IMG/VR virus record: IMGVR_UViG_3300043788_000040
Location: 62,001 to 126,000 of that record
Origin: a virus
Reading direction: 5' to 3' (one strand)
Length of the DNA stretch: 64,000 nt
Shown: positions 14,959 through 62,064 of the stretch, piece after piece
Layout: each line of letters begins with the position of its first letter
Numbering within the stretch: the stretch's first letter is position 1
Notes under the pieces: model-generated
Told to the model about the DNA's origin: nothing
Seen by the model: only the letters and a program-made list of their open reading frames with translations
The model's database searches: none
Program-made: the position numbers and the translations under genes

Positions 14959-15615
14959 TTCTGGAGATAAGAGCAGCGGAAGGAGGCGAGGACGCGAAGC
15001 TCCTCGTTGAAGACCAAGTCACCATCTATGCCCGTGTGGCAACACGGAGGGGTCTTTAGTTTTGAGATTGTGGAGAAGCGACCGGGTCTCGTCGTATTGA
15101 GGATCACGGGCGCTGGGGCGGAAAGCATACTCGCCAACGAATCGGGTGGTCACCGCTGGCAAAGGGTACCGCCGACCGAGAGGCGAGGCAGGGTGCAGAC
15201 GAGCACGATCACCGTCGCAACGTTCGCCGAGGTGGCGACGGAAGAGTTCAAGGTGAACCCCACTGACTTAGAATGGGACACCATGCGAAGCGGGGGCAAG
15301 GGCGGGCAGAACGTGAACAAGGTTGAGTCCTGCGTTCGTGTCACGCACAAGCCGACCGGGCTGGCAGTACGATGTGAGTCCGAGCGGTCGCAGTCACGCA
15401 ACAGGGCGACGGCGCTTGCTACCCTGACTGCCCGGCTGGCAGCAGCGCACCGGGAGCGGGAGCAGGGCGCACAGTCCGCCGACCGGAAGGCGCAGATCGG
15501 CACGGGACAGCGTGGGGACAAGCGTAGGACAATCCGTGAGAAGGACGGGGTCGTGACAGACCACATCCTAAACCGGAAATGGCGATACGCGGACTATGTA
15601 CGTGGGCTGTGGTAA
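14955..15615 (+). CDS. RF1-type peptide chain release factor, +1 frameshift required
   Basis: ATG 14955 (GGGAGAAGGAAG upstream) opens 34 codons beginning MILEIRAAEGGEDAKLLVED, the start of RF1/RF2 domain 2, ending at TAG 15057-15059. The +1 frame from 15058 continues SFEIVEKRPG... to TAA 15615. Joined at L34-S35 the product is 219 aa and aligns with E. coli RF1 across the join without a gap. It carries ESGGHRWQRVPPTE (PxT, the RF1-type UAG/UAA motif) and RSGGKGGQNVNK (GGQ). The RF1 N-terminal domain 1 and part of the C terminus are missing. Coordinates span both frames. Confidence 0.85.
15046..15059 (+). promoter_or_regulatory. Programmed +1 frameshift site GGAGG GGT CTT TAG
   Basis: Internal Shine-Dalgarno GGAGG (15046-15050), 3-base spacer, slippery CTT (15054-15056) and in-frame stop TAG (15057-15059). 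This is the layout of the bacterial prfB site (AGGGGG, 3 bases, CTT TGA) with UAG replacing UGA. Slow termination at UAG would favour slippage of the CUU-bound tRNA to UUU and synthesis of the full factor. Confidence 0.8.
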
Positions 15616-16299: not shown

Positions 16300-16512
16300 C
16301 GGTATCATATACAGAGTGGGAACCCCTCACTAACCTGACGAGGGGAGTTACCTGAAGACGCGGGATGGCCCAAAAGCGCTAGTTACCCGGCAGTCTAGGC
16401 TCTTAATCGCGTAACGGCTGAATAGCCGGAGCCGATGGTAACGGGGTTCTCACGCCAAGTTTTCAGTCCCAGTCCTGTCTGACTGGGTGGTTGCGGGGGC
16501 AAAAATTTCTGT
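16300..16512 (+). other. Non-coding structured stretch before initiator tRNA
   Basis: No ORF. Hairpins CCCCTC..GAGGGG (16323-16345) and CCCAGTC-CTGTCT-GACTGGG (16468-16487). Between them a sequence starting GCGGGATGG, with CTCTTAA (a Lys-type loop) but no pairing arms around it, looks like a decayed tRNA. Confidence 0.35.
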
Positions 16513-16589
16513 CGCGGGATGGAGCAGCCCGGAAGCTCGCTTGGCTCATAACCAAGAGGTCGGTGGTTCAAATCCACCTCCCGCTACCA
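16513..16589 (+). tRNA. Initiator-type tRNA-Met (CAT)
   Basis: 77 nt, the length of E. coli tRNA-fMet and near-identical to it in acceptor and D arm (GCGGGATGGAGCAGCCCGG). Acceptor CGCGGGA faces TCCCGCT, leaving positions 1 and 72 unpaired (C1, U72), the feature needed for formylation and initiation. Stem CTTGG/CCAAG, loop CTCATAA, T loop TTCAAAT, CCA encoded. Of the three conserved G-C pairs 29-31, only 30 and 31 are kept; 29-41 is T-A. Confidence 0.85.
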
Positions 16590-17039
16590 GTTCAACGCCC
16601 GTAGGCTACGAGCCGAGAAGCAGAAGGGCTAGCAGAGTCATACGACCTTATAGGACGGGAAAGCTCTGCAACAGATGTGGCACGGGAGAACCGATGCGGG
16701 GAAGTCGCCTGTAAGTTTCCGTGCCGTCGTTTTCGGTTCCGTGTTCGTTTAAGGCGCAAGCCGGGTTCGTCACGGATTAAAGTGGTGGTCCAACGGAGAC
16801 GCCCCACGCCGAAGTGAGTTAACGCTCTAATACGGGAGCCAATCAATAACTCCCGTGGGGGCAGGTAAGACGCATTCGCTGAGTAATCTCCGGTTATCCG
16901 GTTGGTGCAGCGGTGAAATCGCGAATCATAGCGTCTTCTTAAACCGCCAGCCATGAGGGTCCCTGACGTCGGGTGGTGCAGTACTTCATGGAGCAATTTG
17001 GCGGTACGAGTTTCGCAGCGGTGTATTGTACGGTTACTT
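16590..17039 (+). other. Long non-coding structured stretch
   Basis: 450 bases without a credible gene. Long-range pairs: GCAGAG..CTCTGC around 16632-16675, GGCACGG (from 16679) with CCGTGCC near 16725, TCCGTG..CACGGA around 16738-16776, and ACGGGAG..CTCCCGT (16833-16857). Fragments resembling D arms (TTGGTGCAGCGGTGAAATCGC near 16899) are present without matching T arms. Confidence 0.35.
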
Positions 17040-17119
17040 CATGCAACCAGTAGGTCGCGGGTTCGAATCCCGTCATCCCAACGCTTTACGGGGTGTAGCT
17101 CAGTGGTAGAGCGACAGGT
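17040..17119 (+). tRNA. Candidate circularly permuted tRNA (3' half before 5' half)
   Basis: Order: anticodon-loop bases, CCAGT (17047-17051), variable AGGTC, T arm GCGGG TTCGAAT CCCGT, acceptor CATCCCA (17074-17080), 8-base linker, acceptor CGGGGTG (17089-17095), TA, D arm GCTC/GAGC, G26, ACAGG (17114-17118). Acceptor strands pair at six positions with C1 x A72 open; anticodon strands pair at four of five. Read permuted, it makes one complete class I tRNA; neither half has a conventional partner nearby. The anticodon is uncertain (TGC or CAT bases at the 5' end). Confidence 0.5.
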
Positions 17120-17525
17120 AAGAAAAACGCCGTGCATCTTTGTTCCCTGCGGATTAACTTTTCCTCGTTTAGCAAAACGAGGTGGCGCAGCGGAGAAGCT
17201 TTAGCGACTCCGTCAGCCGTTCTCGGACGTAAACCGAGTGGTGGAGGCGGGCACACTGTGCTCGCCCCTCAATGTCAGTTGAAGTACCGACGAGGCACGA
17301 AATGTGTGAACCGTTGACTCGGGAAAAAGACTGGCACCAAATTTGAAGATGTTGTCCCAGTCAAGCTGTCGGACTAAACTCTGGACCCGGAGTAATGGGC
17401 TTGAAAGAAGCCATGCCCTAATAAGGAAGGCTGACAGCAAAAGATTACAATGAAGCTCACGTCCCAACTCGACACGTTTACCACGCCGCTTAAGGCGGCG
17501 CAGTAAACCTATCTGTGTACTGTAC
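17120..17525 (+). other. Non-coding structured stretch upstream of tRNA-Phe
   Basis: No credible ORF. Perfect hairpin CCTCGTTT-AGCA-AAACGAGG (17163-17182), GGCG..CGCC around GCAC-ACT-GTGC (near 17247-17270) and GCCGC-TTAAG-GCGGC near 17495. Runs of A after the permuted tRNA candidate suggest processed spacer RNA. Confidence 0.3.
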
Positions 17526-17601
17526 CCGGACGTAGCTGATGTGGACTTAGCGCCACCCTGAAAAAGTGGAGATGGGAGTTCGATTCTCCCCGTCCGGACC
17601 A
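17526..17601 (+). tRNA. tRNA-Phe (GAA)
   Basis: Acceptor CCGGACG/CGTCCGG, A73, encoded CCA. Loop CTGAAAA gives GAA (17560-17562); stem CCACC/AGTGG has a C-A mismatch at 31-39. T arm GGGAG/CTCCC. Its C1-G72 is shared with the phage Pro tRNAs. Confidence 0.82.
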
Positions 17602-17603
17602 AC

Positions 17604-17681
17604 GGGGAGCGAGCTAGTCCGGTGATTTAGCGTCCGCCTGAAGAGCGGAAGAATTCGGTTCGACTCCGAGGCTCCCCGCCA
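17604..17681 (+). tRNA. tRNA-Phe-like (GAA) with G73
   Basis: Acceptor GGGGAGC/GCTCCCC, discriminator G, encoded CCA. Stem TCCGC/GCGGA, loop CTGAAGA, anticodon GAA 17640-17642. G73 is unusual for Phe and more typical of Asn/Asp/Gln/Ser tRNAs. The last part overlaps the 3' end of the HNH gene on the other strand. Confidence 0.78.
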
Positions 17682-18042
17682 CTCCTTCAAAAATTCTACC
17701 TTCGTACTTCGCAGCCTCATCCAACCACTTTTGTTCAGTTCTATTTGAATGCTCGATACGATGACAGTTTGAGCACAGCAGATCACATTTGTCTAATTCT
17801 GCTTTGATCACTTCCCAGCTTCTATTGGCGACGTCACCGATACCGAAGTCCTTTTCGTTCGGATCACGGTGGTGGAATTCAAAAGCAGCCGGGTGCCCGT
17901 TGAATCCACATCGCAAACATTTGCCACCAAGATATGCAATAGCAGCATTTTTAGCGCGTATGCGTCTGATTTTCGTGTTGCAAGAGTTGCAGCGATAGCG
18001 ACGCTGGTCGGGATGATCACGCCCACAGAGAGGACATTGCAT
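17614..18042 (-). CDS. HNH endonuclease (homing type)
   Basis: 142 aa. N-terminal zinc knuckle CPLCGRDH..CNSCNTK, then CLRCGFNG, FEFHHRDP and CDLLCSNCHRIEH: an HNH nuclease with paired CxxC metal sites. Encoded against the flow of all neighbours, and its C-terminal codons lie over the tRNA-Phe at 17604, as expected of a mobile homing gene next to its target. Expressed leftward from the short gap before the GIY-YIG gene. Confidence 0.82.
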   Translation of the reverse strand: MQCPLCGRDHPDQRRYRCNSCNTKIRRIRAKNAAIAYLGGKCLRCGFNGHPAAFEFHHRDPNEKDFGIGDVANRSWEVIKAELDKCDLLCSNCHRIEHSNRTEQKWLDEAAKYEGRIFEGVAGSLGVEPNSSALQADAKSPD

Positions 18043-18138: not shown

Positions 18139-18498
18139 ATGGCACACCAAAAAGTAGCTGGACGTGGGTGTATTTACTGCATTTACGAAAGCACCGACAA
18201 CACTCCGCTAGACAAGCAAAGCGCACGATACGTGGGAAAAACCTTTGATTTTGACGCCCGGTTAGCCGGACACAATCGAGAAATCCAAGCCCAACAAGAT
18301 GGGAAAAAGACCGCCTCCCTTAACGTGGATAGGAAGATTGCGTCGGGTCGGCGTGGCGGTAAGAGATACACGATGGAGTGTATCAAGCACCACGTGGCAA
18401 GCACAGATTTGAGTGCGTGGGAAAAGCATCTCATTGCTGAGTACAACACATACGGCGCTGCCGCCGAGCTTCAGTGGAACGAGACTGAAGGCGGATAG
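18139..18498 (+). CDS. GIY-YIG family nuclease
   Basis: 119 aa. GCIYCIYEST is the GIY strand, ARYVGKTFDFDARLAGH the YIG strand with the catalytic Arg/His region, and WEKHLIAEYNTYG carries the metal Glu and the terminal Asn/Tyr. The family cuts DNA with one metal ion; small stand-alone members are often homing nucleases. It lies directly before the DNA polymerase gene. Confidence 0.82.
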   Translation: MAHQKVAGRGCIYCIYESTDNTPLDKQSARYVGKTFDFDARLAGHNREIQAQQDGKKTASLNVDRKIASGRRGGKRYTMECIKHHVASTDLSAWEKHLIAEYNTYGAAAELQWNETEGG

Positions 18499-38361: not shown

Positions 38362-39514
38362 TACACATAAGGTGGAGATTGTTCCAGTCAGTCTTGAACC
38401 GCACCCGAATGCGGATCGCTTATCTGTGGTGCGGGTGTACAACTTCACTTGCGTCGTGAATACCGCCGACTGGACTGGTGTTGAGAAGGCTGCGTACGTC
38501 CAGCCGGACTCCGTCATGCCGGACACGCCCGAGTACCGCTTCCTCAAGAACACCTCCAGCTTCCGCAAGGAACGTGAGGCTCTTGATGCCGTGCTTGCGG
38601 CAGATCACGAGAGCGACCTTTGCCGACTGGATTACAACGAGAAGGTCGCTGCCCTTGAGGCGAAGATTGACGCCAACACCAAGCACCTCCGCATCACCGT
38701 GAAGAAGCTACGTGGCATCATCTCCATGGGTATGCTCCTGCCCGCGCCGGAAGGCTCACAGATCGGCGACGACGTGGCGGAGCAGCTTGGCATCACGCAC
38801 TACGAACCGCCCTCTATGGACGAGCTTGACGGCCGCAGGCAGCATGCCGGGGACGATGTCGGACCCGCGTCGCCGATGATCTACGCCCCGAAGTACGACG
38901 TGGAGTCCATTTACAAATTCGCCGACTGCTTTGACGCGGGCGAGCCTGTGTACGTGTCCGAGAAGCTGGACGGGCAGAACGGCCGCTTCGTGGCGACTGA
39001 GAACGGCAACGAGACGGTCATAGAGCCGGGACGACGGTCCACCCTCGTCTCCCTGTACGCCGGATCGCGCACCGAGTGGAAGAAGAAGGAAGGCGGCTCA
39101 AACTGGTGGAGGGTCATGGAGGACAACCCTTGGATTGATCGGTGGTGCTACGACAACCAAGACTCCGTCCTTTACGGGGAAGTCTTCGGCTGGGTGCAGG
39201 CTCTCAAGTACGGAGCCAAGCCAGGGCAGCTTTTCTTCCGCGCCTTTGACGTCATGGAAGGCATGGAATACTGGGATGCCGAAAAGTTCATTGCGGAGAT
39301 TTATAAGGATTGCCGAGTACCGGACTTCGGCGTCATGCCGTACGACTTTGAGAAGTTGCAGGCCTTAGCGGATGGACCCTCCCTCATCAAGGGTGCCGAC
39401 CACATGCGCGAGGGCATCGTGATCAAGCCAGTCAAGGAGCGCAAGCACTGGAAGCTGGGGCGTGTTATGTTGAAGATGGTTTCCAACGCGTACCTTGAGA
39501 AATCCGCAAGATAG
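38351..39514 (+). CDS. DraRnl-type RNA ligase
   Basis: 387 aa, start ATG 38351 with AAAGGGAGAG. N-terminal OB-like domain (VEIVPVSLEPHPNADRLSVV), then nucleotidyltransferase motif I VSEKLDGQNGRF with the reactive Lys, LYGEVFGWVQ (III), MREGIVIKPVKERK (IV) and KLGRVMLKMVS (V). This architecture is that of Deinococcus RNA ligase (Rnl5), which seals 3'-OH nicks in RNA or RNA-DNA duplexes. Second RNA ligase of the window. Confidence 0.88.
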   Translation: MGVDTHKVEIVPVSLEPHPNADRLSVVRVYNFTCVVNTADWTGVEKAAYVQPDSVMPDTPEYRFLKNTSSFRKEREALDAVLAADHESDLCRLDYNEKVAALEAKIDANTKHLRITVKKLRGIISMGMLLPAPEGSQIGDDVAEQLGITHYEPPSMDELDGRRQHAGDDVGPASPMIYAPKYDVESIYKFADCFDAGEPVYVSEKLDGQNGRFVATENGNETVIEPGRRSTLVSLYAGSRTEWKKKEGGSNWWRVMEDNPWIDRWCYDNQDSVLYGEVFGWVQALKYGAKPGQLFFRAFDVMEGMEYWDAEKFIAEIYKDCRVPDFGVMPYDFEKLQALADGPSLIKGADHMREGIVIKPVKERKHWKLGRVMLKMVSNAYLEKSAR

Positions 39515-61870: not shown

Positions 61871-62064
61871 TACTGGTTACCCCCTTGGCGCATCTGGTCT
61901 ATCATGTCGGGGCTGAAGCGGAGGTTACGTCCAATGCGAATGCACGGAATCTTGCCTGCGGAGGCGAGGCGGTAGAGAGTCTTCGGAGCGATCTTGACGA
62001 GCTTCGCAAACTCCTTGATCGTCAAAAGCTCGGTCTGGGAGCCTTTTTGTGTTCCAGAAGCCAT
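61870..62064 (-). CDS. Excisionase-like helix-turn-helix protein
   Basis: 64 aa. LLTIKEFAKLVKIAPKTLYRLASAG followed by IPCIRIGRNLRFSPDMIDQ is the MerR/excisionase (HTH_17) fold: winged helix with basic recognition helix and the Arg-x-x-x-Phe wing. A DNA-binding regulator or recombination directionality factor. Its stop overlaps the start of the gene at 60680. Confidence 0.88.
   Translation of the reverse strand: MASGTQKGSQTELLTIKEFAKLVKIAPKTLYRLASAGKIPCIRIGRNLRFSPDMIDQMRQGGNQ

Follow-up and report, generated by a model that had tools for sequence, protein, structure and literature searches.

A YrlA-type Y RNA explains an apparent permuted tRNA gene in a phage tRNA array

Background

Why should a phage tRNA cluster contain a T-arm half placed ahead of a D-arm half, the two joined where the ends of a mature tRNA would lie? 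The element that raises this question is found in a 64,000-nucleotide stretch of viral DNA (the window; positions 62,001 to 126,000 of the 170,563-base IMG/VR record IMGVR_UViG_3300043788_000040), in which ARAGORN predicts 15 ordinary tRNAs, none of them at this element. A preliminary description confined the element to 17040-17119 and proposed a circularly permuted tRNA gene with spliced ends. Permuted tRNA genes of algae and archaea place the 3' half ahead of the 5' half, as is seen here, and T-arm followed by D-arm is also the normal order in the bacterial Y RNA YrlA. Bacterial Y RNAs are partners of the Ro60 protein (Rsr); the biochemical marks of the YrlA type are Ro60 binding, tethering of PNPase, and the presence of D and pseudouridine.

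Results and discussion

A single RNA with a covarying basal stem

The sequence contains a single RNA of about 140 nt with a covarying basal stem and conserved internal loops, a tRNA-like module, and a closed acceptor stem (Table 1). The tRNA features previously listed are all present as read: the T-arm half precedes the D-arm half, the acceptor strands form six pairs and the anticodon strands four of five, and the five-base variable loop, U8-A9 and G26 are in place. The judgement that the stem matches were not fortuitous also stands, far beyond chance, the stems being real and conserved parts of one RNA; what escaped notice was the outer part of a larger element.

Table 1. Features of the window RNA and positions of its sister Y RNAs (window coordinates unless a locus is named)
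Feature	Position	Strand	Remarks
Y RNA (YrlA type), whole predicted RNA gene	17013-17153	+	Model without own-genome sequence; Rfam RF02553; L051 syntenic block
Outer stem, 5' strand CGCAG	17014-17018	+	Helix 1; pairs with 17147-17151
Internal loop, 5' side CGGTGTAT	17019-17026	+	Conserved in alignments A1 and A3
Inner stem, 5' strand TGTACGG	17027-17033	+	Helix 2; pairs with 17130-17136
TTACTTC motif above inner stem	17034-17040	+	Near-invariant columns in alignment A1
Anticodon-stem 3' strand CCAGT (tRNA 39-43)	17047-17051	+	Four of five pairs with 17114-17118
Variable loop AGGTC	17052-17056	+	Read from sequence
T-arm GCGGG-TTCGAAT-CCCGT	17057-17073	+	Helix 3; compensatory change in L051
T-stem strands GCGGG/CCCGT	17057-17061/17069-17073	+	Loop TTCGAAT
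Acceptor stem, 3' strand CATCCC	17074-17079	+	Helix 4; pairs with 17090-17095
Loop closing acceptor stem	17080-17089	+	Linker of preliminary description; short loops at same place in most relatives
Acceptor stem, 5' strand GGGGTG	17090-17095	+	Helix 4
T8 A9	17096-17097	+	Read from sequence
D-arm GCTC-AGTGGTA-GAGC	17098-17112	+	Helix 5; 100% of cells paired
D-stem strands GCTC/GAGC	17098-17101/17109-17112	+	Helix 5
G26	17113	+	Read from sequence
Anticodon-stem 5' strand ACAGG (tRNA 27-31)	17114-17118	+	Four of five pairs with 17047-17051
Inner stem, 3' strand CCGTGCA	17130-17136	+	Helix 2
Internal loop, 3' side TCTTTGTTCC	17137-17146	+	Family consensus CGNTTGTTCC; conserved in alignments A1 and A3
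Outer stem, 3' strand CTGCG	17147-17151	+	Helix 1
Sister Y RNA	L011:2169-2266		Beside Ro60; weak match
Sister Y RNA	L011:2277-2403		Beside Ro60; 45.5 bits, E 2.5e-10
Sister Y RNA	L011:4529-4599		Beside Ro60; 38.2 bits, E 1.1e-8, model of short Y RNAs

Pair counts were made on an alignment of 16 sequences (A1) picked for showing the motif, which biases the counts toward structure: both-sided changes occur at 24 of its 27 pairs, and 93.9% of cells are paired (95.3% in a second count) compared with 37-50% when the partners are slid. Double changes affect all five pairs of the outer stem and all six of the acceptor stem, while the inner stem covaries at seven of seven pairs with 95.5% of its cells paired, so that every pair of the outer and inner stems covaries. 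The 5' and 3' ends pair in a basal stem with conserved internal loops, as a YrlA-type Y RNA requires.

Because the relatives had been chosen by motif, we take the match of the window sequence itself as the independent test. Covariance model R2, built from 11 relatives with zero sequence from this genome, matches 17013-17153 at 82.5 bits (E 1.8e-20), and in a search of the complete record the element is its top match (E 3.8e-20); neighbouring ordinary tRNA genes of the same genome give chance matches of at most 28.7 bits. A relaxed scan of 16300-17700 with the Rfam YrlA model (RF02553) likewise returns a full-length match at 17027-17139 (45.1 bits, E 1.8e-8), the best match of that model over the whole virus record (E 5.1e-10), although below the gathering score of 69 bits, which is a curation threshold rather than a biological feature. 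Single-sequence folding of the window RNA gave a stability not above that of shuffles (z -0.59 and -1.26). BLAST of the tRNA region against annotated phages returned mostly tRNA genes. Vault RNA and tmRNA were rejected as identities, their Rfam matches being weak and overlapping, and a short Y-like hairpin seen by eye near 17172-17225 was not found by the model of short Y RNAs.

These results bear on two other readings. Unrelated fragments of two tRNAs, or tRNA genes in decay, might simply be neighbours in what is indeed a tRNA cluster, where real tRNA genes match the model in part, at up to 28.7 bits; but the full-length match of 82.5 bits, the flanking stems, the covariation, and a conserved block that ends with the RNA (see below) leave this reading next to no credence. 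A natural permuted group I intron, or the halves of two intron-split tRNAs, is just as hard to credit: long non-coding stretches do flank the element on both sides, but Rfam finds no intron core at either gathering or relaxed threshold, and both halves are part of one covarying RNA.

The inner and outer stems together with the conserved internal loops identify the class of the RNA, and we regard its identity as a Y RNA as near certain. Like YrlA (RF02553; Salmonella), it has a basal stem that joins both ends, a T-arm before the D-arm, acceptor strands closed by a loop, and a Ro60/Rsr in the same genome; the structure of Salmonella YrlA is available as 6CU1 (PMC8394870). It differs from YrlA in scoring under the Rfam cut-off, in possessing its own basal consensus (TGGYGTAG on the 5' side of the internal loop, TTACTTC, and CGNTTGTTCC) and an extra outer stem, and in its genomic context. 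The 5' internal loop is likely part of the predicted Ro60 contact.

A Ro60 gene and sister Y RNAs in the same phage

A TROVE search of the 170,563-base record finds one gene (G000:127020-128450, 476 aa), just past the window end at about window coordinate 65020 and 48 kb from the window RNA. Its product matches Pfam TROVE at 63.1 bits and carries a vWA_Ro60 domain in which the DxSxS metal site (D325, S327, S329) is invariant among 15 homologues. A profile combining the phage protein with its viral relatives hits 1yvp (Xenopus Ro, 7e-24), 9nen (human RO60), and 2nvo (D. radiodurans Rsr). TROVE proteins occur in a small subset of jumbo phages (PMC7824862).

The genome encodes at least four Y RNAs, namely the window copy and three that flank Ro60. 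Unlike these sisters, the window copy is not near the protein gene, proximity being usual rather than obligatory. Neither PNPase nor RtcB was found in the phage record, so a partner enzyme would have to be the host's. On the combined sequence evidence, we consider it very probable that 17013-17153 encodes a YrlA-type Y RNA that partners the phage's own Ro60.

Relatives and the detached location

Homologues of Ro60 were found in 16 viral contigs and 84 phage records, and a scripted search showed a common RNA adjoining the gene in most of the relatives examined; among related phage loci, nearly all have a Y RNA next to Ro60. This RNA runs in the order outer stem, TGGYGTAG, inner stem, TTACTTC, T-arm, acceptor strand, loop, acceptor strand, D-arm, followed by an A-rich stretch, the inner stem, CGNTTGTTCC, and the outer stem. 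The conserved permutation for which the preliminary description proposed searching relatives exists, as the module order common to Ro60-adjacent RNAs. We found such Y RNAs in Caulobacter phage CcrColossus, Xanthomonas phage Olaya, Brevundimonas phages, and Arthrobacter phage Atuin, with the same motif set and module order as in the window; theirs lie within about 1.5 kb of Ro60, and several have a closed anticodon stem-loop, in contrast to the window copy. Some have been taken for tRNAs: the public record of phage Gurke annotates tRNA-Ser at the Y RNA L029:2691-2765, and that of CcrColossus tRNA-Gln at L031:2053-2120. Putative Y RNAs of Listeria phage CKA15, described as highly transcribed ncRNAs near an Rsr homologue, are tentatively comparable by description; the same source suggests their identity as Y RNAs and cites Y RNAs in mycobacteriophages (PMC12282133).

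In bacteria, mostly Acidobacteriota and Caulobacterales, the RNA is near Ro60 in 74 of 80 loci tested, with 201 model matches at E 1e-5 or better. Rfam at its gathering threshold reports zero Y RNAs in 16 bacterial and 12 viral Ro60 loci, whereas the models built here find them in nearly all loci where it fails.

Against this background the position of the window RNA is unusual, because nearly all high-scoring copies in nine other phage records lie at most about 1.5 kb from Ro60. Yet it is kept in place: in the closest relative, L051, whose DNA polymerase is 74% identical, the RNA occupies the corresponding position ahead of the polymerase gene (upstream; E 7.6e-18), so the detached position is not an accident of assembly. 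A conserved block shared with L051 (window 17008-17162, 79.9% identity) has the length of the RNA and ends where the RNA ends. In the basal part the two copies are almost the same; the T-stem has changed from GCGGG/CCCGT in the window to GCTGG/CCAGC in L051, with pairing kept. No Ro60 was found in L051, a 54.6-kb fragment. The window RNA is a real RNA gene of a known class; what is unusual about it is its detached location and its membership of a clade that falls below the Rfam YrlA cut-off.

Several other features of this neighbourhood were recorded. A second block shared with L051 (window 16599-16661, L051:843-904, 84%) contains an apparent hairpin, GCAGAG...GACCTTATnGGACGGGAA...CTCTGC, whose stem becomes GCGAGA/TCTCGC in L051 and whose core motif recurs in 6 viral contigs; the block has no Rfam match. 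A non-coding stretch at 17217-17245 is identical to L051:2176-2204 at 29 of 29 bases. Beside the tRNA cluster, 15007-15615 encodes an RF-1 peptide-chain release-factor domain (112.7 bits) and a partial PCRF domain, and a weak HNH-type ORF (17614-18042, minus strand) overlaps the second tRNA-Phe gene (17604-17681, plus strand) and is followed by a GIY-YIG ORF at 18139-18498. Outside the window, the phage's other tRNA array includes a bacterial class A RNase P RNA (L012:3610-3960, equivalent to G000:31609-31959; 181.3 bits); no description of a phage-encoded RNase P RNA was found in the literature searched.

Evidence against a permuted tRNA gene

Were the element a genuine circularly permuted tRNA gene, its precursor would undergo circularisation, or splicing at the anticodon end, and would lose the linker to become a functional tRNA. 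The paired anticodon strands and the presence of a linker are compatible with such a gene, as are two RNA ligase domains of the phage (PF09414; window 38941-39480, 66.3 bits, and G000:136845-137243, 30.2 bits). The suggestion that phage ligases could join the ends is thus right as to the existence of the enzymes, but nothing links them to this RNA. At the seemingly open anticodon end, the RNA runs on into the conserved, covarying basal stem of the Ro60 type, and L051 does not share the sequence that flanks the split stem; a spliceable junction that would leave an anticodon loop with a defined anticodon is not seen.

At the other end, the linker comprises 8 bases when A72 and A73 are counted as tRNA. 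In relatives the acceptor strands are mostly closed by a short loop, often of four bases, with a few longer; four is also the commonest length in bacteria (GCAA, GAAA, GTAA, TTCG, and CTCG, for example). Such loops are too short to accommodate mature 5' and CCA ends, and in the window the acceptor 3' strand is followed by AACG, with no CCA past position 73, so that no intervening sequence permitting CCA end formation is apparent. Since the acceptor stem is a closed hairpin, the C1 x A72 mismatch once noted as an initiator feature has no meaning. To our knowledge, the tRNA splicing endonuclease of known permuted tRNAs is absent from bacteria, which also counts against such a gene. Algal and archaeal permuted tRNAs are spliced to functional tRNAs, whereas the window RNA keeps its acceptor hairpin and a predicted protein-binding stem. 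We therefore hold a permuted tRNA gene to be very improbable: the proposal of one RNA with permuted tRNA modules survives, and that of a tRNA with spliced ends gives way to a Y RNA built on a basal stem.

Split and closed anticodon stems

The anticodon strands that gave the element its tRNA-like appearance are best read as part of a tRNA mimic, with the Y stem extending from its loop. A split anticodon stem with four to five of five pairs is seen in the window, in CcrColossus (L031:1877-2016), and at L036:1882, L035:4895, L025:798, L037:2212, L029:2226, L030:2230, and L034:1876, and shifted registers generally give fewer pairs. In a second subtype, with the Y stem attached between positions 26 and 27, the T-arm is preceded by a closed anticodon stem-loop whose seven-base loop includes U33 (CTGTTAA and CTCATAA are recurrent). 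The sister copy L011:2277-2403, with the loop CTGTAAA on a five-pair stem, belongs here, as do L030:2706-2842, L031:2378-2512, L013:1603-1737, L070:265-396, and many others. A scripted criterion for the closed loop is satisfied by 19 of 35 viral copies (shuffled mean 4.3, maximum 10) and by 35 of 49 bacterial copies (shuffled mean 5.2, maximum 13), contrasts that are rough because related sequences are not independent. Copies of this subtype are complete permuted tRNA mimics, present in phages and bacteria alike. The account of YrlA in PMC8394870 names the D, T, and acceptor arms only. A complete anticodon stem-loop in many relatives, and not in the window copy, is one of the less expected features of this family; the other is the conserved detachment of the window copy from Ro60.

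Proposed function

By analogy with studied systems, we infer that the window RNA is a Ro60-bound tRNA mimic that would steer RNA processing or decay. Its basal stem would bind the outside of the Ro60 ring, as in studied Y RNAs, while the tRNA-like module would present a face to be read by tRNA-binding enzymes. The module may dock the Ro60 particle on a nuclease, for example host PNPase, or on tRNA-handling enzymes; during infection, the docked particle could direct how structured RNA is degraded, quality-controlled, or protected. In D. radiodurans a Y RNA tethers Rsr to PNPase, and work in that species and in Salmonella describes the tRNA-like module as a substrate of tRNA-modifying enzymes (PMC8394870).

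The main functional rival to the tether model casts the same RNA as a decoy: its tRNA-like module would occupy anticodon nucleases or further defences that attack tRNA, and Ro60 would hold or stabilise the RNA instead of being tethered to a nuclease. Competitive inhibition of an anticodon nuclease has been named as a possible role of the YrlA domain in Salmonella (PMC7790460), genuine anticodon loops with U33 occur in many relatives and in the CTGTAAA sister copy, and the phage has many tRNAs as well as RNA ligases. We nonetheless consider the decoy unlikely: the window copy has no closed anticodon loop, the role shown in D. radiodurans is the tether cited above, and anticodon-loop forms occur just as often in the chromosomes of bacteria, where no such attack is obvious. 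A broader proposal, in our view distinctly unlikely, places the window RNA in a wide phage and bacterial Y-RNA clade, many members of which are complete permuted tRNA mimics with authentic stem-loops of varied anticodon, and has phages deploying these Ro60-held RNAs to decoy or sense anticodon nucleases and other defences directed at tRNA, with the detached copy in the tRNA array as a free-standing form.

Conclusions

An apparent permuted tRNA gene is now explained as a Y RNA, and odd halves inside phage tRNA arrays can accordingly be partners of Ro60. The new covariance model detects Y RNAs beside most of the Ro60 genes tested; the curated Rfam cut-off yields none there. With anticodon loops present in many copies, experiments can now address directly a long-standing question: what Y RNAs imitate, and for whom.
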